Shown here: positions 808 through 25,850 of the stretch, piece by piece
Numbering within the stretch: the first letter of the stretch is position 1
Layout: every line of letters begins with the position of its first letter
From: a virus
Strand: one strand, 5' to 3'
IMG/VR virus record: IMGVR_UViG_3300030099_002991
Location: 1 to 26,415 of that record
DNA length: 26,415 nucleotides
The notes under the pieces: model-generated
Database searches by the model: none
Told to the model about the DNA's origin: nothing
What the model saw: only the letters and a program-made list of their open reading frames with translations
Translations under genes and position numbers: made by a program

Positions 808-1227
808 CTAAATGCTTGATTTTCTAACTTTCTTACCTATAACTTCAATGTTCTGTATTTCTTCTGGCTTTCTAGCATCAAAGTCAAAAGTTCCTGTGTT
901 TTGATTCCAAGTGTTTTTATTTAAATCTATTATGTTAGCTGTTCTTAACTTTTCATCCCAAGCAACATATCTGCAACCAAGTATTCGTAACTCACCAGAG
1001 TAATTAAATAATAATTCTCGTATTGGAGTTTTTCCTAAACTAAATATTATAAGTTTACGCCTGCCAACCTTCATAAACCAATTCTTGCCAAGTTTATTAG
1101 TTCCCTTAAAAGTTCCGATATAATCTATTTGAATGGCTGCAACCTCACCATTAGTTTGTAATAGTGCTTCACCTCTACCATAAGTAAGTGTTGCTTTTGT
1201 TGCTATTGGTTGTTCTTTTATTTTCAT
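808..1227 (-). CDS. Small tail-tip-associated protein, function unknown
   Basis: A 139-residue protein starting MKIKEQPIATKATLTYGRG. Its ATG overlaps the stop of the upstream tail-tip gene (ATGA), which indicates translational coupling and fixes the start. It is a mixed, probably beta-rich protein with a basic C-terminus (VIGKKVRKSSI) and has no membrane segment. The position between a large tail-tip protein and a probable fibre suggests a tail-tip accessory or fibre-attachment part. I do not recognise a family. Confidence 0.75.
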   Translation of the reverse strand: MKIKEQPIATKATLTYGRGEALLQTNGEVAAIQIDYIGTFKGTNKLGKNWFMKVGRRKLIIFSLGKTPIRELLFNYSGELRILGCRYVAWDEKLRTANIIDLNKNTWNQNTGTFDFDARKPEEIQNIEVIGKKVRKSSI

Positions 1228-3611
1228 CCTATAATCCTACTTACCATACCCACAACATCTAGTATATCTACATTACCATCTCTGTTGTAATCTGCTATAT
1301 CTTGTTGTTGCTGATTTAGTTCTTCTTCATTGATTATTATGTTTACTATGGCGACTACATCTAAAACATCTACTAGCCCATCTCCATTTATATCGCCATA
1401 TAGTATTGGTTCGTCTTCATCTGGCACAGGCAAATCAAATGAATATGTGTCACCTTTCCATACAAGAGCCTTGTCTTCTAAATGGTGCATCTGAATTGCT
1501 TTTATTTTAATGCCATCTAATGTTTTCTGCGTTTCTGTAATCATAAATAAAGGTAATATAAACTGACCACATCGAATTGGCATATCGTCTTGACTATCTA
1601 ATACATAGCTTTCATTGTAAACTTTTTTACCTAAAATCATTTTATCAAACTCAATTAAGTCGCCCACCTGAAATCCATAATATTTTAGTGGTAATTTACA
1701 CTCAACTATATTGTGTTGGTTTTTATTGAATTGTAGTAAATACTTTGCTAGTGCATTTGCTGCTGATTCTGATCTAATATAATCACTTTCAAAAACTAAA
1801 TAACTATCAGTATGATTTATCTCGGTATCGTAAGCCACACCATAATAATTATTAAATTCAATGTTTTGTTCTTTATAGTTTTTGTAAGTTCCTGTCTTAA
1901 AATAAATATCTTCATCAACTTTAATATCTTCAGTTGAGTTAAGGTATACATTCAAACCATAGTCATTTTTATACTTGACCTCTGCTTGCGTTATCACATC
2001 ATCAATAGAAGTTCTTTTAAAAGAATAACTTAAAACATCATCTGCTTTTACTATAGATATATCTTCTTCGCCTGTATATGTGTTTTTTACATTAATAAAT
2101 TTGAGAATGTCGTTATTAAGTGTAGGTATGGATTGGCTTGATTTTGAAATATCTTGTATTAAGTTTTTAGCTTTTATTTTTTTATCTACAGAGAACCCAA
2201 GTATTGTATTAATATCGTTTGATTTATATTGCTCGTGTAATTGTCTTGATTCCTCTTTTGATTGAATATCAACTTTGTTTTTATCAAATAACAGTTCCTC
2301 GCCTAATATATGATGTATTATGTCGCAAGGTTGCTCAATAGTTATTTCAGATGGATTGTACTCTGGTATGAACTCCTCTTGAACATCTAATACATCAATC
2401 GTAAGATTGTCAATAATAGTATATCGTTGAGATAAAGGTAAAAGATTGAATAAATATTGTGCCGACTCTAAATCTGTTCCATAAAAATTAGTGTCTAAGC
2501 TAGTAGTTCTTACAATAATAGAAAATTTATCTGTTCCTGTTTCACCTACATTACTACCTATATATTGATTATTCAAGATAACTTGTTCGCCCTCTGTTAT
2601 GCTTGTTTGTAGTTTATAGCTTTGAAATTTTCCATAATTTGCTTTATCTATATTTTGTAATTCTAGACCGATGTCCAACAAATCATTTGAAAAAGTAGAA
2701 GAACCATCTAATCCTGTTTCCCCTAATATTAAGTGTTCTTTATTTTTATCTAAAAAATAAATTTCTAATTGCCCTGCAAAATTATTTGATTGTAGAGATA
2801 CCTGTACTGTAGCACTATCCCCTTCATTTACAAATTCTGCAACACCTATTTCTGTTATTATATTAAAATCATAAACATTATTATTGAAATAGACAGGTGT
2901 CCACGCAAATCTTCTATCTTGATTGTTAAATTGTGAATTAATTAAAGATGTTTCAACACATTCAATATCTGTACTTGTTGGGTTTCCATTAGAATCTGTT
3001 ACAAAAAGTTCTGTACTTATAAGAACATACTGATTATCTACTTCAAATGTTGGTATAGCATTTTTAGGAAATTCGTGGTTTGCCGAACCTGTGTATTTTA
3101 AAAAACCTGCCTCTCCCCATATTTCACCAAATATACCACTATAATCATCACTAGTGTTAGAACCATAAAATCCTGATAAAGTCTCTCCTAATATTTTAAC
3201 ATCAACTATAGCAGAAGTATCGTATTGTTCCCAATAAACATCTAATACTTCTTTGGATTGAAAACTAATTTGTCCTGAGCTTTGATTATGATATGGTAAA
3301 TCGTTTATACCACGAGCATTAACTGCACCGAGTCCATTTCCTAAATTTACCCAATCCTCATTATATCTCCATTCTGTACTCATTTTTTGCCAAAACTCGT
3401 TATAAAAATCTAATTCTCTGCCAAAGCCAAGACTAATTCTAAAGTCTATATAAGATAACTTATTATGTGTTAAATTAGGGTTATCAATCATATTTAAAAA
3501 AGGTATAGCAGATTCATTATCTGACATTAGAGTATTATCACTCATCTTAACTCTTAATCTTACCATAGATGGTGATATAAAGCCTATAGATTCATAAATT
3601 AAATTAGCCAT
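1224..3611 (-). CDS. Large tail-tip/baseplate hub-like protein with C-terminal dockerin module
   Basis: This 795-residue protein comes three genes after the chaperone in a G/GT, tape measure, tip, tip order, so it is probably a tail-tip or hub component. Residues 1-400 are beta-rich and Asn/Ser-rich. About 430-720 resemble hub or tail-endopeptidase-type domains (CDIIHHILGEEL near 430, then alternating strands). The clearest element is the C-terminus, about residues 739-795. It has two calcium-binding loops of the dockerin type I pattern, DINGDGLVDVLD (740-751) and DYNRDGNVDILD (774-785), each followed by a hydrophobic helix. The start overlaps the previous stop as TAATG, and the end overlaps the next start as ATGA. 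The hub assignment is inference from synteny. The paired dockerin loops are seen directly. Confidence 0.8.
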   Translation of the reverse strand: MANLIYESIGFISPSMVRLRVKMSDNTLMSDNESAIPFLNMIDNPNLTHNKLSYIDFRISLGFGRELDFYNEFWQKMSTEWRYNEDWVNLGNGLGAVNARGINDLPYHNQSSGQISFQSKEVLDVYWEQYDTSAIVDVKILGETLSGFYGSNTSDDYSGIFGEIWGEAGFLKYTGSANHEFPKNAIPTFEVDNQYVLISTELFVTDSNGNPTSTDIECVETSLINSQFNNQDRRFAWTPVYFNNNVYDFNIITEIGVAEFVNEGDSATVQVSLQSNNFAGQLEIYFLDKNKEHLILGETGLDGSSTFSNDLLDIGLELQNIDKANYGKFQSYKLQTSITEGEQVILNNQYIGSNVGETGTDKFSIIVRTTSLDTNFYGTDLESAQYLFNLLPLSQRYTIIDNLTIDVLDVQEEFIPEYNPSEITIEQPCDIIHHILGEELLFDKNKVDIQSKEESRQLHEQYKSNDINTILGFSVDKKIKAKNLIQDISKSSQSIPTLNNDILKFINVKNTYTGEEDISIVKADDVLSYSFKRTSIDDVITQAEVKYKNDYGLNVYLNSTEDIKVDEDIYFKTGTYKNYKEQNIEFNNYYGVAYDTEINHTDSYLVFESDYIRSESAANALAKYLLQFNKNQHNIVECKLPLKYYGFQVGDLIEFDKMILGKKVYNESYVLDSQDDMPIRCGQFILPLFMITETQKTLDGIKIKAIQMHHLEDKALVWKGDTYSFDLPVPDEDEPILYGDINGDGLVDVLDVVAIVNIIINEEELNQQQQDIADYNRDGNVDILDVVGMVSRIIG

Positions 3612-5314
3612 TAATAACCACCTCCACCATTTGAGCCAGAACTTGTAGCATTAAATCCTACGACATTACCTGTAGATATTGTTGCTTGTTGTTGCTCTCC
3701 TGTATAAAAACCAACGCTGTTTTGTAATCTATCAACTCTACCCTTAAGTTCTGCAAAAACGCTGTAGCTTGTAAAGTTATTTAATATAGCTTGCCTTACT
3801 AAATTTAGATTATTTACTTTAAGATACTCCATAGCACCATTTTGAGCTATAAGTGTCCAATCTCCACTAATAAGTTGCCTTTGTCCAATGCTAAATATAT
3901 TATTTGAAATATTGCTTGATATTCTGTTTTGGGTAGTACCATTATTTACATAAATATCATTTTCTTTATCGTCTGCATCAATATCCCATAATGTCGCACT
4001 AACATCTTTCCATTGAAACATAAGATATGGCAAATTGTTGTAAGGTAAATCAAAATCAGTAATTTTTGATTCCATATTCCATTCTAAATTTACTTGACCT
4101 CTTATTTCTCTATTGGTTGTGTCTGTTATAGCCAATTCTTTTAAAATATTGCTTTCACTACAAAATTCATTTGCTTCAAAGTTAATAATGTTTTCACCAT
4201 AAATATTAAAATAATCAGGAAAATTATTGCGAGATGTTCCAACACCCCAAAACCAAAACTCAGATAATGAAAAATCATCTGGAATATCTGAAAAGTCTTT
4301 TACATCTAAATATGCAGGACTGTTTAAAAGATTTGTTGGTATTTGACTTTCTATATCGCTAAACATTTTTATAGGTATAGAATTTTTTACGAATTCCTCT
4401 CCATCTTTTTGATGATATAAATTGTGTGTTCCACCAGCAAAGATGACTTCTGCATTATGAATTACCTCAACAAAATTATGACCTATTGGTGATGATTGCA
4501 TAGATGGTATTGTGCTTGATGGGCTGTTAGAATACTCGTCTGATGTAGTAGTTTTATCAATAAGTATTTTGTTGTCTAATATAATGTATTGTTCTGTATC
4601 AACATTACTGTATAAAGTTCCTATGGAAAAGTCTGAAAAAAGATTAGCATTTTGTTTTATTTCCATATAGACATCATCAACAAAAACATAAGGTTTAATT
4701 ACTTGATTTAAAAAAGAATTGTCCGGTGTAATTGAAAATTTATATCCACCACTTTGGTCGCTTGTTATAATGTTGTAGAATACACAAGGTGCTTTATCTA
4801 CATAACCATAAACCAAAGGAACTCTTTTGTTGTTATATTTTTCTGGCAATCCAATGTCATCTCTTACAAACTCTTGAGGTAAATCTATGTCTAAAATATC
4901 TTGCGTTTTATCTTCTACATCAATAGATACTATTTTGTTGTTTTCTTGTATATCTCGTATAAAGCCTGTATAAATCATTAAGCAATCATCTAGAGTTTCA
5001 GCCGATTGTGATTTTAAGTATATAGTAAGAGGCTTGTTCATAACAGATGGGCTAAACAATTTATGAGATAAAGTCATATCAAGATATTTGTAATTATAAA
5101 ACTCTAAATTAACATTTGATGTCTGGAAGTTTTTATCTGATATATCTATAGACTCTCTAATCGAGCCAAGACTACTCAGTAAGGGTAAATAGTGATTATC
5201 TAAAGAACACTCATTGGTAGATAGGAAAAGCCGATTATCAATTACAACTAAAGGTATAAGATTGGTTGTGTTGCCCTGTATGTCGTTTTCAAACTTCTGT
5301 GGTAATTCTAACAT
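3611..5314 (-). CDS. Tail-tip protein downstream of tape measure (distal tail/hub type)
   Basis: A 567-residue protein directly after the tape measure gene, where phages with long tails encode distal-tail or hub proteins. Residues 30-140 look like a beta-rich tip domain: SNVNLEFYNYKYLDM followed by LMIYTGFIRDI and IVSIDVEDKTQDILDI. That pattern of a strand, a YTG turn and a DxxxK strand is typical of phage tip proteins that bind the tube end. The C-terminus is flexible and glycine-rich (SGSNGGGGY). Start and stop are both TAATG overlaps with the neighbours. The exact family is not certain. Its place and length fit a structural tip protein. Confidence 0.75.
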   Translation of the reverse strand: MLELPQKFENDIQGNTTNLIPLVVIDNRLFLSTNECSLDNHYLPLLSSLGSIRESIDISDKNFQTSNVNLEFYNYKYLDMTLSHKLFSPSVMNKPLTIYLKSQSAETLDDCLMIYTGFIRDIQENNKIVSIDVEDKTQDILDIDLPQEFVRDDIGLPEKYNNKRVPLVYGYVDKAPCVFYNIITSDQSGGYKFSITPDNSFLNQVIKPYVFVDDVYMEIKQNANLFSDFSIGTLYSNVDTEQYIILDNKILIDKTTTSDEYSNSPSSTIPSMQSSPIGHNFVEVIHNAEVIFAGGTHNLYHQKDGEEFVKNSIPIKMFSDIESQIPTNLLNSPAYLDVKDFSDIPDDFSLSEFWFWGVGTSRNNFPDYFNIYGENIINFEANEFCSESNILKELAITDTTNREIRGQVNLEWNMESKITDFDLPYNNLPYLMFQWKDVSATLWDIDADDKENDIYVNNGTTQNRISSNISNNIFSIGQRQLISGDWTLIAQNGAMEYLKVNNLNLVRQAILNNFTSYSVFAELKGRVDRLQNSVGFYTGEQQQATISTGNVVGFNATSSGSNGGGGY

Positions 5315-7416
5315 TAACTAATTCCTAGATCAGCACCTCTGCGTACTGCTTTTTTAATTGCTGGTATGGCTTCAGATTCTATAAAGTCTTGACTCATAAC
5401 ATTACCTGTAAATGTTACGTTTACTGCACCTGTGCCTGTTCTGTTCATTCTGTTCAAATTCTCTTGGCCTATAGACTCAACTGCACTTCTACGCATAACA
5501 AACTCACCTTCTTGCAATACTGCTGGCACATTACCTGCACTTCCACCACCATGATAAGATTGTACCATACCACCATTATGAAATATTTCTGCACCAAAAA
5601 GGGTGGGTGCAACCAATCCTGCTGTTGGGAATATAGCACTTAAAATGCCAAAGGCTAATCTGTTAGATAAAAATGTAGCTATTATTTGCTTAAGAGAATT
5701 AACAACAGCTTTACCCATATTTTGTCCATTAACTGCTGCCGATGCTAAAGCACTTGACATACTTCTTATTTGTGTCGATGTCGATTTAAATGCTGGGTCT
5801 AAATTTGTTAATTGTTTATTTAGATTGGCTAATACTGCTAGTCTTTCTTTATCATCAGGTATTGTATGTTTATTATTTTGTATTTCTTTAATTTGTGTAT
5901 CAAGATTAGCCCTTCGAGCCTCTAGTGTTTTTTGATACAATCCAGCGTATTTATCTTGTAAATTTGCTAGTTCATCAGTAGATGTAACTCCTGCTTCTGT
6001 AAAAGTTTTTATCTGAGCTTCAAACTCAGCTATTTTTTCTTTTGATTTTTGTATTTTTGCATCTTCTAAATCCATCATACCCATAAGTGCTGTATTAGCA
6101 TCGGTTGCTTGATTTATTATCACTCCCATCGTCTCACTAAACTCACTACCTCGTTTAAAAACACTATCAGGAACATTTTGTTCGCTAATATTTTCTAATT
6201 TCAAAGCATCTCTTACCTTTTCAGCTGATTTAAGAAATTGTTTTTCTCGTACCAAAGCTAGATTTAATTCTGCAAGAGTTAATTGATTTACAGCTTTTTT
6301 AAAGTTATTAACAGGTTCTTCATCAAACTCTCCTTTAAACAACCCAAACTGGTCTATAAGCAATCCAATCCCAGCACCAAGTGCTATTATTGGTAATAAA
6401 ACACCTGTACCACCTAAAAATTTCATCATGCCTTTAAGTGCTGTTGTTACACCTATTGTTGCAATTTTAAATACACCAAATGCAGTTGATGCTACACCTA
6501 ATCCAGTAGCTAGTGATGCAAGCATTTCTAAATCTATAGCATTGAATACTTTTGTTAGAAATTCTATAAGAGGTATCAAAGCCACATTTACTAATTCACC
6601 AATTCTAACTCCAAGATTAGAGGCAGCAGCTTCAAATTGTTCAAACTTTTGCGTTGTGCTAAATACTTCCTCACCTGATGATTGCAGTTTTCTTCTTCCT
6701 GCTTCAAGTGTAGCATTAAAGAATGCTTGTCTTTTTTGTGAATCTGTAAGTTGACTTACATTTATGCCTAAACTATTTGCAAATTTTTTATTAGCATCAT
6801 CAACCCTTACAATAATACCAATGTTATCCAACATAAGCCTTGACTGTCTACCAATACCAGTTGTCATTGATTCGATTGAGCTAGCTGTATCTCTACCAAG
6901 TGCTTTACCCAGTCTTTGTGCTATATCAAACATTTCAGCCATTTCATCGGCATTTTTTGTAACTCCAAGAACCATCGCACTATTTGCTTGTTGGAATAAA
7001 TCCATTTGTGACATAGTACCATTAGTTGCCTCACCAAGTTTTGCTTGCATATCGGCAGCTTGTGCTGAACCACCTGCTAAATTTGTAAAAGCTCTCTCTA
7101 AATCTTCTACTGTGCCTGCATTTTTACCAAAATTAAGAAGTTGCCTACCACCAAGCGATGCTGCAAAAGAGAAAAGAAGTAGCCTAGAACGTAATGTAGC
7201 AAATGACTTTGATAAGCCATCTGCTCTTTTCTGTGTAATTCTCATAAACTTAGCAGGTAATTGTGTTGATCTGCTCAACTTACGCAATTCACGATTTACT
7301 TCTTTTGTTCTACCCTCTAATTTACCTTGAGCTTTAGCTAAATTCTCTATAGCTAATCTTAATTGCTTATCACCTTTGGGTATGAATCTTATTGTTATGC
7401 TGTTTTGACTTGACAC
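5314..7416 (-). CDS. Tail tape measure protein
   Basis: A 700-residue protein with the layout of a tape measure: a basic helical N-terminus (residues 1-75), a hydrophobic stretch near 78-90, long helical and coiled regions, and a block of hydrophobic segments around 285-355. Near the C-terminus is a GEFVMRRSAVESIG stretch like that seen at the end of many tape measures. The start codon is GTG at 7414-7416, with an AAGGA ribosome site about nine bases upstream. It follows the tail chaperone, whose frameshifted half overlaps it by 47 bases. With the lambda rule of about 1.5 angstrom per residue, the tail would be near 105 nm. That length is an inference, since processing is unknown. Confidence 0.9.
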   Translation of the reverse strand: MSSQNSITIRFIPKGDKQLRLAIENLAKAQGKLEGRTKEVNRELRKLSRSTQLPAKFMRITQKRADGLSKSFATLRSRLLLFSFAASLGGRQLLNFGKNAGTVEDLERAFTNLAGGSAQAADMQAKLGEATNGTMSQMDLFQQANSAMVLGVTKNADEMAEMFDIAQRLGKALGRDTASSIESMTTGIGRQSRLMLDNIGIIVRVDDANKKFANSLGINVSQLTDSQKRQAFFNATLEAGRRKLQSSGEEVFSTTQKFEQFEAAASNLGVRIGELVNVALIPLIEFLTKVFNAIDLEMLASLATGLGVASTAFGVFKIATIGVTTALKGMMKFLGGTGVLLPIIALGAGIGLLIDQFGLFKGEFDEEPVNNFKKAVNQLTLAELNLALVREKQFLKSAEKVRDALKLENISEQNVPDSVFKRGSEFSETMGVIINQATDANTALMGMMDLEDAKIQKSKEKIAEFEAQIKTFTEAGVTSTDELANLQDKYAGLYQKTLEARRANLDTQIKEIQNNKHTIPDDKERLAVLANLNKQLTNLDPAFKSTSTQIRSMSSALASAAVNGQNMGKAVVNSLKQIIATFLSNRLAFGILSAIFPTAGLVAPTLFGAEIFHNGGMVQSYHGGGSAGNVPAVLQEGEFVMRRSAVESIGQENLNRMNRTGTGAVNVTFTGNVMSQDFIESEAIPAIKKAVRRGADLGIS

Positions 7417-8112
7417 TATTTATTTCCTTCTTTTCTTTTTTAGCTATGGCATTTTTTATTGCAAATACTGTTTGTACCCATTTATATGGCTGTTCCCCAA
7501 ATGTGCCTGCATAAGGTGGAACATTAAACTTTTCACAGTATATGTATTTCTGTATGTCACGTTGTATTTTATTATCTAAAAATACATTAAAACATCCAAA
7601 GAAATGTATTTGTGAATTAACTGATTCTGTTATGTCAAAAGATTTACCATCTCTTGCGTTTACAGATTTAGTTTCTTCGATAATTAAATCAACTACTTCC
7701 CAAACATCTTCAATACTTTCAAATCTTCGTATCTCTCGTTTCCCATCTATTAATACTGGTATTTCAGCTTCATAGGGAAATTCGTGATACTGACAGCCCT
7801 CACAAGGAGTTCCAAGTATATTTAGCTCTACTTGGAGGGCTTGCCTTCCCCCTCACCAAGAACCTTTTGTAATTCTGTAAAGATTTGTGTTCTATCTTCA
7901 AAGCTAAGGGTTTTAAGGAACTTATCTGATGTATCGCCTGCTATAGCTACTCTAATAAACTTTGTAATCGTTTTATTAGGTGCTTCCATTTGAAATCCAC
8001 CATCGTCTGTTGCCTTAAATTTACCCCAAACTAAATCAAGCAACTCATCTCTTTCATCTATCGAAAGGTTCTTAACTTTAAGGGTTCTTTTATCTTTTAA
8101 CTTTATCTCCAT
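7370..8112 (-). CDS. Tail assembly chaperone, -1 frameshift product (gpGT-like)
   Basis: A 247-residue fusion predicted from two frames. The first 88 residues come from the ATG at 8110-8112 (MEIKLKDKRTLKVKNLS). At the G-run 7848-7852 a -1 shift leads into a frame open to a TGA at 7370-7372 (159 residues). This second half has no ATG, GTG or TTG codon, and a TGA closes its frame just before the G-run (7853-7855), so it can be made only by shifting inside the few codons between the G-run and the zero-frame stop. It contains PCEGCQYHEFPYEAEIPV and, near its end, PPYAGTFGEQPYKWVQTVFA, like the T part of other tail chaperones. Such proteins coat the tape measure during tail assembly. The tape measure is the next gene. 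Confidence 0.87.
7828..8112 (-). CDS. Tail assembly chaperone, unshifted product (gpG-like)
   Basis: The 94-residue product made when ribosomes do not shift, ending LGEGEGKPSK at a TAG (7828-7830). The start has a GAGGAT ribosome site about seven bases upstream. It lies between the tail tube and tape measure genes, which is where gpG is found. The N-terminal half is charged, with the pattern LKDKRTLKVKNLSIDERDEL, and the middle is amphipathic helical (TKFIRVAIAGDTSDKFLKTL). In lambda the short form is made in large excess over the shifted form, and a similar ratio is expected here but not shown. Confidence 0.88.
   Translation of the reverse strand: MEIKLKDKRTLKVKNLSIDERDELLDLVWGKFKATDDGGFQMEAPNKTITKFIRVAIAGDTSDKFLKTLSFEDRTQIFTELQKVLGEGEGKPSK
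7848..7852 (-). promoter_or_regulatory. Programmed -1 ribosomal frameshift site
   Basis: In coding direction the codons are GAG GGG GAA GGC, giving five G in a row. The peptidyl glycine tRNA on GGG can move back one base and still pair with GGG. The heptamer is not the textbook X-XXY-YYZ type, because the A-site codon GAA would re-pair with GGA. The site is confined by a -1 frame TGA immediately upstream and the zero-frame TAG 18 bases downstream of the GGG GAA pair. Confidence 0.8.
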
Positions 8113-8137: not shown

Positions 8138-9157
8138 TTAACAAGCTACTTCAACTAAAGCGTTTGAACCATCTCCAACTGCTTTTACAGAAATATCCAA
8201 CATCATAACATCTGCCTCATTAAATGCTACGTTTGTCAATATTGATTTTGGTAATGATATTCCAAATAGTCCATCATTTAAAGTTCCATCATTATTCAAT
8301 ATTGATGCTTGGGCTGCTGTAGCACCTTGTTGTGTTTGGTTATTAAATGATGCTATTAGTGGTTCTGTGTTAGCATCATATTTCGCTGTTACATCTAAAA
8401 CTGCTGAAAACTCACCAGCTCTTGAAACAATTTCATATCCTGTAGAAACAAGACCAGAAAATGTTGCAGGGTTTTCTAATGTAAGTGAAAAGGAACTTAA
8501 CACTAAGTCATCAACACCATACATTTTTCTATTTGCTACATCAGACCAACCACTCATAAAGTAGTTTTCACTCGCTGCAAATGTTGTATCAACACTAATT
8601 GAGTCATCTGATAAATCCTCTGCTAATGTTCCTGTTTGGAATGTGACTGAAAACTTAACTCTACCACCTTCTGTACCAACATCTCCATTTAGAGTAAGTG
8701 ATGTTACTACACAATCTTTAAAAGCTAAATCAGAGTTGCTTAAAGGCGATGAAAAAATAACAGATAATAATGTACCTGCTTGACCTGTGTCATCTTTACC
8801 TACAGATTGTACGCCTGCATCTGATGCAAATGAATACACACCACCTGCAGAACCTTCTGCTTCTCCCATAATATTTTCTAAAAGCATATCAAGTGCAGCT
8901 GTTGTTGCTGTGCCTGATACTGATATTTCTTTGACAGATGCTTTAACATCTTGAAAGAAATCTTCTTTTTGTAAAACCCTGCTTCCTGACCTAACGTCAA
9001 GAACTTGTGTTGGGTTTAAAGATGGAAATCCTACAGAATCTACATCTAAAGCGTGATAAGCATTTCCACCTGCTGCCACAATAGCTCCAAAGTCATCTTG
9101 CTCTGCAATTAAAACTTGAAATTGTTTTGGTGAAAAAGCTGCTGTATTAATAGCCAT
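8138..9157 (-). CDS. Major tail tube protein
   Basis: A 339-residue acidic, Ser/Thr/Gly-rich protein without membrane segments, starting MAINTAAFSPKQFQVLIAEQ. It shows the strand-rich pattern of tail tube subunits, with VLDVRSGSRVLQKEDFFQD early, KEISVSGTATTAALDMLLEN next and VMMLDISVKAV near the end. It sits between the tail terminator and the tail chaperone, the standard tube position. The start has AAGGAG about nine bases upstream, and the ATG overlaps the previous stop (TAATG). There is no sheath gene beside it, which argues for a non-contractile tail. It is longer than the smallest tubes, so an added surface domain is possible. Confidence 0.82.
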   Translation of the reverse strand: MAINTAAFSPKQFQVLIAEQDDFGAIVAAGGNAYHALDVDSVGFPSLNPTQVLDVRSGSRVLQKEDFFQDVKASVKEISVSGTATTAALDMLLENIMGEAEGSAGGVYSFASDAGVQSVGKDDTGQAGTLLSVIFSSPLSNSDLAFKDCVVTSLTLNGDVGTEGGRVKFSVTFQTGTLAEDLSDDSISVDTTFAASENYFMSGWSDVANRKMYGVDDLVLSSFSLTLENPATFSGLVSTGYEIVSRAGEFSAVLDVTAKYDANTEPLIASFNNQTQQGATAAQASILNNDGTLNDGLFGISLPKSILTNVAFNEADVMMLDISVKAVGDGSNALVEVAC

Positions 9158-10751: not shown

Positions 10752-10997
10752 TTATTTACCTCTCATTTTCTTTCTTACCGACCTAGAATAACTAGCTCTT
10801 TGTTTACCTTTCTTAGTAGCTGCACGTTTCTTCCTATTTTCATAGGCTTTTTGGCTTTTAGATAGGCTTTCACGCACAGATTTAGGCAAGTATCTACCTC
10901 TCTTACTCTTTGGCTTTTTCTTGTCGCCTTTGCTTAAATAATCCCACTTTTGAGATGTCCATTTTTTCAAAGATCTTTGTGATTTTTTAAGTGCCAT
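10752..10997 (-). CDS. Tiny very basic protein (DUF5872-like pattern)
   Basis: An 81-residue protein with Lys and Arg throughout and two tryptophans near the N-terminus (SLKKWTSQKWDYLSKGD). The pattern of W, then QKW, then GRYLPKSVRESLSKSQ and a TKKGKQ stretch resembles small basic phage proteins assigned to DUF5872. I judged this by eye. It overlaps the upstream gene as TAATG. It lies in a run of four such genes at the head-tail gene boundary. Nucleic-acid binding or capsid-interior packing is inferred from charge only. Confidence 0.62.
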   Translation of the reverse strand: MALKKSQRSLKKWTSQKWDYLSKGDKKKPKSKRGRYLPKSVRESLSKSQKAYENRKKRAATKKGKQRASYSRSVRKKMRGK

Positions 10998-11185
10998 TAT
11001 TTATACCCACCACCTTTAGCTTTGTATTGCCTAGCAAGCATCTGTGCTTTACGAGCTGACCATTGTCCTGCCCTACCACCTTTAGTACCTCTAAGTATTT
11101 TATTAAATAATCTTTTACGCATAGTTGGCTTGGTATAATTACCTGCTTTATTTACTGTAGATTTTCTTTTCTTTTTCCTAGCCAT
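10997..11185 (-). CDS. Tiny very basic protein with GQWSARKAQ motif
   Basis: A 62-residue protein starting MARKKKRKSTVNKAGNYTK, basic throughout, with a C-terminal GRAGQWSARKAQMLARQY motif and a GGGYK end. Similar small proteins occur in marine phages in my memory, but I cannot name a firm family. It overlaps the next gene as TAATG and is 3 bases from the upstream one. Function unknown. Charge suggests contact with DNA or RNA. Confidence 0.62.
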   Translation of the reverse strand: MARKKKRKSTVNKAGNYTKPTMRKRLFNKILRGTKGGRAGQWSARKAQMLARQYKAKGGGYK

Positions 11186-11188
11186 AAT

Positions 11189-11446
11189 TTACCATTTTTT
11201 GCAAGACCAATATCTTGCTGTTGTTTTATCTGTAGCTGTAGAGCATCTATGTCTAGCTCTAAATGACTTTCTTCTAGCAGGGCTTGACTTTTTAATTCTC
11301 ATATTTGGGTCGCCAAAAGTAACTCTTTTAGTTCTTTTTCCATCTTTAACAAAAACTTGAAACTTCTTACGACCATAACCTGCTTGTCCTCGTCTAATAC
11401 GAGTAGGTTTATTCAATCTAACTGATCTACCTTTGAATTTAGCCAT
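11189..11446 (-). CDS. Small basic protein with C-terminal Cys/Trp motif (DUF5754-like)
   Basis: An 85-residue protein. The C-terminal half has the pattern FGDPNMRIKKSSPARRKSFR, then ARHRCSTATDKTTARYWSCK and KW, which matches my recollection of DUF5754. Two cysteines (in RHRC and WSCK) could bind a metal or form a bridge. The N-terminal half is Arg/Lys-rich with KKFQVFVKDGK strands. It belongs to the four-gene basic cluster. The domain name is from memory, not a search. Confidence 0.7.
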   Translation of the reverse strand: MAKFKGRSVRLNKPTRIRRGQAGYGRKKFQVFVKDGKRTKRVTFGDPNMRIKKSSPARRKSFRARHRCSTATDKTTARYWSCKKW

Positions 11447-16849: not shown

Positions 16850-16892
16850 TCGTATAATATGGAGAAGGCAAAGTCGAGGATGTATTATACGA
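16850..16892. repeat. 10-bp perfect inverted repeat before lysis genes
   Basis: Arms 16850-16859 (tcgtataata) and 16883-16892 (tattatacga) with 23 bases between. On the minus strand each arm contains a TATAAT-type box, and the right arm covers the last codons of the metallophosphoesterase gene. It could be an internal promoter with operator, an RNA hairpin or a processing site. No matching -35 box is visible. Confidence 0.55.
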
Positions 16893-18099
16893 CCACCTTG
16901 AAGATAGTTTCTTGTTTACTACTTTTTTTAGCTGATTTTGCATTATACGCCTCCAATGCCTTATCAATGTTATAACCTTTACAATCTGTATTTTGCAAGT
17001 CAATTTTTATTCCATCTCGGTTTCCATTACTATAAAATATGTAAGCATTTTGACTTGCTCTACCACCGAGATTCAAAGCCTTTTCAGAGTAATCATTTGC
17101 ACCTACAAGGCTTGCACTTCTTCCAAATGTATCACCAACTCTTGCCGAATGAACATGACCAAATATTGCATAGTCTATGTTAATTCCTTTCATAGCATAT
17201 CTACCAATTAACTGATTTATAGCTTTCTCTACTCCTCTTGCTATTGCCCCATGACCATGCAATAGAAGTAAATTTTGCCCTGCTACATTTATAACTAATT
17301 CACTTGGGTCGCCATCTATAAAATGTATATCTGAATCTTTAAATAGATACTTTAGACAATTTGTTATAGTATAATCATAATTATCTGTAGCTACCTTACT
17401 ACTCCAACCTAACTCTTTATTGGCTCTACCTTCGTTACCAACCACACTACCTATGCTTAAATTAAAGTTTGAATTAAGGTCTAAAAACACTTGTTGCATT
17501 ATATCTACTGCTAAAAATGTAGCTTTGGCTCGATTCTGTGCCTGATTTAACAATTCGTCTAAGCGACGATCACTATTCATTAGGTCACCAGTCAATGCCA
17601 CCACAACTTGGCTAACATCATTCATCTTGAAGTACGCTGATGCCTTATTTACAAAATGCTGGCATCGCTGTGATGCAACTTGAAAGTCATATCTGTTATT
17701 CTGGAGTTCGACTAATTCATTAAAGTGAAGGTCGCTAAATTGTATCACTCCAACAGCTTTGTTTTTGACCTTATGCTTTTTAGTGTGTTTGTGTAACTTA
17801 TTCTTTTCAAAAAGCTGTACTAACTGTTTGCTGTATTCTTCTACAGCGTTTTCAATTCTAACGTGTTCCCTAAAAGATTTTCGTTCTACTCTATTTAAAT
17901 CTTGAGCCTTTTGTTTTTCCTTTCGGTACTTTACATTCTCTTTTAAAAGCTCAATATCAGTTATAGGGTTTACACTTCTATGCCTACATCGCTTGCACCT
18001 GTACCTCTGCTTTCCATGCTCGAAGCCACTTCTGATTAGCTGAATACTGTAGCAGTTTGGGCAAGCAAGTTCATTACCTGTAAGTTTATCTTGTATCAT
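16885..18099 (-). CDS. Metallophosphoesterase (calcineurin-like) with N-terminal zinc ribbon
   Basis: A 404-residue protein. Residues 13-38 hold a zinc-ribbon pattern, CPNC (13-16) and CKRC (35-38). About 45-115 is a basic helical linker. The rest is the metallophosphoesterase core: D-x-H in FSDLHFNE (D123, H125), GD in ALTGDLMNSD (171-172), GNEGR (221-225), HGHG (281-284) and GHVH in IFGHVHSA (314-317). In the usual motif the third block is GNH[DE]. Here the histidine is Glu. The family includes Mre11/SbcD nucleases and phosphatases. It lies between the endolysin and lysis cluster, an odd place for a nuclease, so packaging or late DNA processing is only a guess. No ribosome site is clear. 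Confidence 0.82.
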   Translation of the reverse strand: MIQDKLTGNELACPNCYSIQLIRSGFEHGKQRYRCKRCRHRSVNPITDIELLKENVKYRKEKQKAQDLNRVERKSFREHVRIENAVEEYSKQLVQLFEKNKLHKHTKKHKVKNKAVGVIQFSDLHFNELVELQNNRYDFQVASQRCQHFVNKASAYFKMNDVSQVVVALTGDLMNSDRRLDELLNQAQNRAKATFLAVDIMQQVFLDLNSNFNLSIGSVVGNEGRANKELGWSSKVATDNYDYTITNCLKYLFKDSDIHFIDGDPSELVINVAGQNLLLLHGHGAIARGVEKAINQLIGRYAMKGINIDYAIFGHVHSARVGDTFGRSASLVGANDYSEKALNLGGRASQNAYIFYSNGNRDGIKIDLQNTDCKGYNIDKALEAYNAKSAKKSSKQETIFKVVV

Positions 18100-19692: not shown

Positions 19693-20211
19693 TTAAGATT
19701 TAAATGATTTGATAATGTGTTGCCAATTTGCTTTTTTCTCTTGCTCTGACATTTCTGATAATGGCTTAGTTACTTCTTGATTCCTAGCCTTTCCAAGAAC
19801 TTGAGGAGCATTTGGCTTTACATTTAGTTTATTAGTTACAAATTCAAGAGTTTCCAATGGCAGATTTGCCAATGAATCTCTATCTTCTTCAGGATGTTTT
19901 TCTAAAAGGCTTGCTCTCTTGGCTGATTCATATTTATTCCATTTATCAGCAACAGAAGTTAGGTTTTCATTTTCAGAAGATACCTTTTCATATAAGGCTT
20001 TAAAATCTTCTTTCTCTTTCAACTTTGCTTCTTCTGCTTGAGCCATTTGCTTTTCAAGCTCTGCAATACGAGCTTCAGCATCCTGCGACCTTTTTCTATA
20101 CTTTTTGCTTTCTGCTATTAATGCACCAACTTCGGTCGGTTGAGTAGGTGTTTCTTGGGTAGGTTGCTCATTAACTGTTTCGCTAACTACTGGTTGATTT
20201 TCTTCGGACAT
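19693..20211 (-). CDS. Capsid scaffold protein
   Basis: A 172-residue protein with a Glu/Gln/Thr/Pro-rich disordered N-terminus, a long charged coiled coil (about 35-90, including ARIAELEKQMAQAEEAKLKE) and a basic helical C-terminus (NWQHIIKSFKS) that could bind the shell. This is the classic plan of a phage scaffold. It is the first gene of the late block. Start has AGGAGG with five bases to the ATG. A possible promoter with an operator lies upstream at 20240-20269. Confidence 0.83.
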   Translation of the reverse strand: MSEENQPVVSETVNEQPTQETPTQPTEVGALIAESKKYRKRSQDAEARIAELEKQMAQAEEAKLKEKEDFKALYEKVSSENENLTSVADKWNKYESAKRASLLEKHPEEDRDSLANLPLETLEFVTNKLNVKPNAPQVLGKARNQEVTKPLSEMSEQEKKANWQHIIKSFKS

Positions 20212-20239
20212 ACTGCCCTCCTATCTTGTGTTTTTAAAA

Positions 20240-20269
20240 ATTATAAATACAATATCTTGTATTTGTCCT
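20240..20269 (-). promoter_or_regulatory. Late-block promoter with a palindromic operator in its spacer
   Basis: In the minus direction there is a perfect TATAAT (20240-20245), an 18-base spacer and AGGACA (20264-20269, four of six bases of TTGACA). The spacer is filled by a perfect inverted repeat, aaatacaa (20245-20252) and ttgtattt (20257-20264), so a regulator binding it would block the polymerase. The promoter is predicted by eye. The repeat is seen directly. Confidence 0.55.
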
Positions 20270-20271
20270 TG

Positions 20272-20291
20272 ACCATAAGTTAGATTATGGT
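20272..20291. repeat. Second inverted repeat in the divergent region
   Basis: Perfect 7-bp arms accataa (20272-20278) and ttatggt (20285-20291) around a six-base centre. It lies 27 bases from the centre of the first repeat, on the terminase side. A second regulator site or an RNA hairpin in the terminase leader is possible. Confidence 0.5.
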
Positions 20292-20312
20292 TGTTGTTAC
20301 TTGCAACTATTA

Positions 20313-25127: not shown

Positions 25128-25850
25128 ATGGGCAATTTTCATAACTTATACATTAATAATACATCGATTAAAAATAATAAATATTTTGAGACGTCAAACG
25201 ATCTTTTAAAATATTCGAATAGTAAATTAAATGAAATAAAAGCATATAAAAAAAGAACAGGTTTTTTAAAAAATACAAATTCAAAATTAGGGCGTAAAAT
25301 TTACGCTTTCGATCTACCAGCTGTGGTTTCCTGTCCAGACTCGGAAAAATGCTTTCAAACGTGCTATGCTAACAAAGGGACGTTTTTATTTAAAAGCACA
25401 AAACAAAGTAATACTTACAATTTTGCGATCGCGTTAAATGATATTAAATATCTAAAAAAAGAACTAATAAAAGAAATAATTAATAAAAAAATACATTGTA
25501 TAAGAATACATAGCTCTGGCGATTTTTTCAGTAAACAGTATTTTTTGATCTGGTGTGCAATTGCAAAAAAATTCCCAGCTTTAAAAATATTTACATACAG
25601 CAAAGCCCCTCAAATTCAAGGGGTTAAAATACCTAAAAATTTAAATATAATTAGTTCATTTATTAATATAGATAATAAAAATTATTTAAATTATGGATCT
25701 TTAGAACAAATGAGAATATTAAGAAAAAAAGCTAGAGCTTTTATCTGTCCAATGACCAAAGGGTTAGAAAAATACAGTACTAAAAATTTTAACTGTTCAA
25801 TTTGCAAATATTGTATTACAAAAAATAAGCCTGTATTTATTCAACATTAA
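25128..25850 (+). CDS. Gp88-family-like cysteine-rich protein
   Basis: A 240-residue protein. Residues 50-85 have NSKLG then LPAVVSCPDSEKCFQTCYAN (Cys69, Cys75, Cys79). Next is IRIHSSGDFFSKQYFLIW (125-142) with a TYSKA block (156-160), and a C-terminal cluster CPM (207) and CSICKYC (223-229). That order of NSKLG, CPxxxxC, RxHxSGDF, YSK and C-terminal CxxCxxC matches my recollection of the Gp88 family (Pfam Gene product 88), found in phages and of unknown biochemical role. The seven cysteines may bind a metal or Fe-S cluster (inference). It follows leader repeat type 1 and is very AT-rich, with TTT/AAA-heavy codons unlike the structural genes. Confidence 0.78.
   Translation: MGNFHNLYINNTSIKNNKYFETSNDLLKYSNSKLNEIKAYKKRTGFLKNTNSKLGRKIYAFDLPAVVSCPDSEKCFQTCYANKGTFLFKSTKQSNTYNFAIALNDIKYLKKELIKEIINKKIHCIRIHSSGDFFSKQYFLIWCAIAKKFPALKIFTYSKAPQIQGVKIPKNLNIISSFINIDNKNYLNYGSLEQMRILRKKARAFICPMTKGLEKYSTKNFNCSICKYCITKNKPVFIQH

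Follow-up and report, generated by a model that had tools for sequence, protein, structure and literature searches.

The window analyzed here, a stretch of 26,415 nucleotides making up positions 1 to 26,415 of the IMG/VR virus record IMGVR_UViG_3300030099_002991, very probably encodes a pair of tail assembly chaperones in the manner of lambda G/GT, the longer of which would arise by programmed -1 ribosomal frameshifting. This reading is supported by a slip site conserved among homologues, a downstream stem-loop, the order of the genes and the predicted fold of the N-terminal half of the product.

The junction lies on the minus strand, where all coordinates given by the initial annotation proved correct. 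A gene of 94 amino acids, which we call the N-half (gpG-like, 7828..8112), runs in the zero frame from an ATG at 8112 to a TAG at 7830-7828. As had been described, it is overlapped by a -1 frame that has no start of its own: the C-half (gpT-like, 7370..7852) opens directly after a TGA (7855-7853), remains open over 160 codons (7852-7373, reading GGG GGA AGG CAA and so on), ends at a TGA at 7372-7370, and contains no ATG, GTG or TTG in the window sequence. The TGA that closes the -1 frame just before the five-G run, and the zero-frame stop ending 18 nt past GGG GAA, were likewise seen as annotated. The heptamer GGGGGAA (7846..7852) adjoins this TGA and is read G_GGG_GAA within the zero-frame codons GAG GGG GAA; it would be the point of entry into the -1 frame, which a ribosome coming from the upstream gene could reach only within 7852-7828, so that the shift is indeed confined to a few codons. 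The fusion of N-half and C-half is 247 amino acids long. A downstream frame at -1 that lacks its own start is one mark of the frameshifted tail assembly chaperones of the G/GT type.

Scans of IMG/VR that took the C-half, its alignment and divergent members as queries yielded 98 distinct junctions, with 38 to 96% protein identity to the queries used. The frames overlap, with the C-half at -1, in all 98, and a G_GGR site is found at the same position in 97 of them: GGGGGAA in 78, GGGGGAG in 8, GGGAAAC in 10 and GGGAAAA in 1. Among 24 representatives that are less than 80% identical over 66 nt, the corresponding counts are 21, 0, 2 and 1. In each of the 97 junctions the second codon is GAR after GGG, or AAM after GGA; a conserved slippery site within the overlap, another mark of the chaperone class, is present in 97/98. 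The motif GGGGGAR occurs once on the minus strand of the window and not at all on the plus strand, and GGG is a rare codon (22 of the 481 glycine codons in the window's genes, or 4.6%), yet it is near-fixed at the slip site. The one junction with no recognizable G_GGR site comes from L124, which at 38% identity is the remotest homologue of the set; near its position 2001, the overlap is kept and reads AAC CCG AAG AAA CCC TCC, with a possible stem of the CCCTCC/GGGGG type. For the 88 junctions measured in the first round, the distance from the heptamer to the end of the zero-frame stop was always 3, 18 or 24 nt. Standard starts (ATG, GTG or TTG) are wholly absent from the -1 frame in 9 of these 88 homologues, the window included; in the others they do occur farther along the frame, but at no conserved position. 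The arrangement of the junction is beyond what chance would produce.

Immediately after the slip site we found a putative stimulatory stem-loop (7792..7845, minus strand), which is an addition to the initial annotation and is backed by its minimum free energy (MFE), by synonymous recoding and by compensatory changes. In the stem core, 7840-7831 (GCCCUCCAAG) pairs with 7806-7796 (CUUGUGAGGGC), leaving one bulged U, and a weaker outer extension joins 7845-7842 to 7795-7792. The stem begins 5-6 nt past the heptamer, the usual spacing for stimulators of -1 frameshifting. In the window, the 66 nt that follow the heptamer have an MFE of -25.1 kcal/mol (z -4.2 relative to dinucleotide shuffles). For 23 divergent representatives, the part outside the overlap was recoded synonymously according to the codon usage of the family; against this background the mean z was -2.30 at the junction, and -0.65, -0.01, -0.61 and -0.24 in the four control windows that follow one another downstream of it. 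Pairing and covariation were assessed in 32 sequences with a 6-nt spacer, in which the stem is paired in 99.2% of cells, compared to 42-56% in slid registers. Pair 14-57 is G-C in 24 of these sequences and C-G in 8, a double change being seen at one stem pair only and possibly reflecting few evolutionary events. In the window and its closest relatives the register is displaced by one base and includes the bulged U. A further homologue (L122) keeps a long stem with bases changed on both sides, and in one group (L082) the CxGC codons are unmatched and an upstream segment takes over the pairing with this 5' arm, the 3' arm being relocated. Selection acts on the stem at the RNA level, and the stem would presumably stimulate slipping.

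The genes follow one another in the order tail tube, N-half, -1 C-half and tape measure, which is the position occupied by this class of chaperones. The tail tube protein (8138..9157, minus strand, 339 amino acids) scores better than the curated cut-off of PF18906 (Phage_tube_2, E 5.5e-11). The next gene had been annotated as tape measure, and this was borne out: its 700-amino-acid product (5314..7416, minus strand, GTG start) has, in tblastn comparisons, 24-26% identity to Xanthomonas and Stenotrophomonas phage proteins that carry this annotation. It overlaps the end of the C-half by 47 nt.

The N-half, 28-96% identical across homologues, gave an AF2 model (pLDDT 84.5) matching five PDB chains with a Z of at least 2, among them 2ob9, the tail assembly chaperone of HK97, and 3klu, 3fgx and 5ir0, the YqbN/rbstp2171/ORF19 structures. 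These four resemble it in predicted fold, with modest scores (Z 3.6-6.2 over 72-82 residues) and only 6-13% sequence identity. Among the BFVD matches were tail assembly chaperones from Bacillus phages, HHTV-2 and Mu (FS-gp41). The predicted fold of the N-half is thus, at a modest Z, that of tail assembly chaperones. The C-half carries a conserved CxGC motif, is 46-96% identical across homologues and was modelled by AF2 with a pLDDT of 88.6; comparison of its fold with the PDB gave no convincing match, the best being to unrelated helical proteins (Z 3.9). Its residues 94-154 match most of the 73-position profile of phrog_9001, 'tail assembly chaperone', at E 9e-4 (6e-6 when the window alone was searched). 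This match is weak, with just 2 members out of 19 at E 0.1 or better; phrog_9001 found no match in four other records. Neither half had a match above cut-off in Pfam or NCBIfam, and a Calsequestrin match below cut-off (E 0.0044) was dismissed as due to chance. The G/GT-type chaperone reading put forward by the initial annotation is in this way supported by gene order, by the predicted N-half fold (PDB and BFVD), by the weak phrog_9001 match and by the recurrent site.

Several other features of the window were noted. The structural and tail genes are on the minus strand, while the terminase and subsequent genes are on the plus strand, the divergent switch being located at 20211-20301. Within the tail cluster, a 795-amino-acid protein (1224-3611, minus strand) has at its C-terminus a dockerin type I domain (PF00404, E 6.6e-8, residues 738-787), which is unexpected in a phage tail protein. 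Between the head and tail genes are three consecutive small ORFs that are very rich in arginine and lysine (10752-11446, minus strand; 85, 62 and 81 amino acids), for which no Pfam match was found. A 404-amino-acid protein (16885-18099, minus strand) has an InsA-like zinc ribbon (E 8e-4) and a calcineurin-like phosphoesterase region (E 2e-4), both below cut-off, and the plus strand encodes a Gene product 88 family protein (25128-25850, PF17338, E 4.3e-24).

The G/GT scheme itself is textbook knowledge (reviewed in PMC5009743). The window resembles lambda gpG/gpGT in having, between tail tube and tape measure, a short gene with a -1 shift, close to the 3' end, that leads into an extension lacking a start, and the lambda site GGGAAAG is close to the GGGAAAC and GGGAAAA of some relatives. 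These two are classic lambda-type heptamers, on which both tRNAs would keep Watson-Crick pairs at their first two positions after the -1 shift. The window differs from lambda by its GGGGGAA and its conserved downstream stem-loop, and the lambda families have no detectable sequence similarity to its genes. GGGGGAA had been called a non-standard site. This holds only against the canonical X_XXY_YYZ rule, which GGG GAA fails since re-pairing of the A-site GAA on GGA needs a middle G.U; the label does not hold in general, as GGGGGAA is a recurrent published slip site of phages. Among the annotated frameshifts of SEA-PHAGES actinobacteriophages, PRFect reports it at every one of roughly a thousand 'fivetwo' sites (PMC10885494), and the corynephage phi16 has a GGGGGAA frameshift site with a predicted pseudoknot (PMC5506516). 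Like the 'fivetwo' sites, the heptamer of the window stands in the phase NNG GGG GAA before the zero-frame stop, and inspection of the phi16 record, which reads GTG GGG GAA GAC TAA, showed heptamer and phase to be identical there. The authors of the phi16 study also predicted a downstream RNA structure, although theirs is a pseudoknot and the one in the window a simple stem-loop. The actinobacteriophages, phi16 included, have actinobacterial hosts and are mostly of high GC content, whereas the family of the window has 33% GC and unrelated sequences.

We propose that most ribosomes would make the 94-amino-acid N-half and stop at the TAG at 7830, and we infer that a minority, paused by the stem-loop (7845-7792), would slip back by one base on G_GGG_GAA and complete the fusion. 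During this step, tRNA-Gly would re-pair perfectly, from GGG to GGG, and tRNA-Glu would re-pair on GGA, keeping its first and third pairs and forming a G.U at the second. If the parallel with lambda holds, the N-half would coat the tape measure protein, and the C-half of the fusion would recruit tail tube subunits.

Whether one or two tRNAs move is where the main alternative arises. It accepts the same chaperone and the same -1 frameshift, and supposes that the P-site tRNA-Gly slips alone before the A site is filled, which would give the junction ...LGEGGRQALQ and not the ...LGEGERQALQ predicted for tandem slipping. Perfect re-pairing of GGG on the five-G run, set against the middle G.U that GAA would need, speaks for it, as does the smFRET work on dnaX, in which slippage occurs at single tRNA occupancy (review PMC5009743). 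However, the second codon is restricted to GAR, or to AAM after GGA, in 97/98 junctions, and this restriction hints at a role of the A-site codon and favors tandem slipping; the evidence is indirect, since GAR may also be kept because the protein needs glutamate. Relatives carry the canonical GGGAAAC in this place, as expected under tandem slipping, and this fits tandem slipping at least as well as a single slip; moreover, the PRFect authors pointed out G:U re-pairing for GGGGGAA (PMC10885494). We consider slipping by the P-site tRNA alone possible but somewhat unlikely. A slightly lower likelihood is given to the broader idea that GGGGGAR constitutes a distinct class, in which a slip of the single P-site tRNA is driven by an obligatory downstream stem-loop, and which marine phages interconvert with the tandem-slip GGGAAAC at the same position.

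The readings that dispense with ribosomal frameshifting were rejected. If the C-half were a separate gene, translated from a non-standard start or by re-initiation past the TAG at 7830, the ATA and ATT codons of the -1 frame could serve, and in 19 of the 88 homologues a standard start (ATG, GTG or TTG) lies about 10-11 codons past the slip site; but the absence of standard starts in 9 of 88, the window among them, and the lack of a conserved position in the rest argue against it, and the conserved overlap, the rare GGG codon and the stem would be left without a reason. The initial annotation had pointed to homologues with separate halves as a possibility, and no homologue with separate genes and a conserved start was found. 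This reading is highly improbable. Slippage of RNA polymerase on the G run, yielding an mRNA that joins the halves in one frame, is even less probable: the junction does have a run of five G, but such a run is short for transcriptional slippage, a -1 shift would require an inserted base, the GGGAAAC and GGGAAAA of relatives preserve tRNA re-pairing and not the homopolymer, and a stem spaced by 5-6 nt is a ribosomal signature. A sequencing or assembly error, the other possibility raised in the initial annotation, has hardly any probability left. Homopolymers are error-prone and the sequence is a virus record of the IMG/VR type, but the same break recurs at the same position in 98 distinct junctions from about as many contigs, non-homopolymer versions of the site included, and error is thereby excluded. 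Programmed -1 ribosomal frameshifting remains our preferred reading.

The contigs and their composition indicate that this uncultivated phage family is probably marine. No match to the C-half was obtained at E 1 by tblastn against 50,697 GenBank phages, and no relative was found in GTDB genome contigs, which therefore provided no clue to the host. Going by the tape measure, the closest annotated phages were a Rhodobacteraceae phage and HXX_Dennis, and neither yielded a comparable GGGGG site.

The G/GT scheme and the use of GGGGGAA as a phage slip site were already known. The novelty is modest and consists of a large uncultivated phage family to which no GenBank phage is closely related, a stem at the junction that is conserved and covaries, and the exchange of GGGGGAR for the canonical GGGAAAC at one position. 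The analysis places in the G/GT scheme an uncultivated, probably oceanic phage family whose C-half, which gene callers would miss or truncate, shows only weak matches to existing families. Occurring with GGGGGAA, GGGGGAG, GGGAAAC or GGGAAAA and with covarying stems, this one gene forms a natural series that offers a test bed for one- versus two-tRNA slipping at GGGGGAA.
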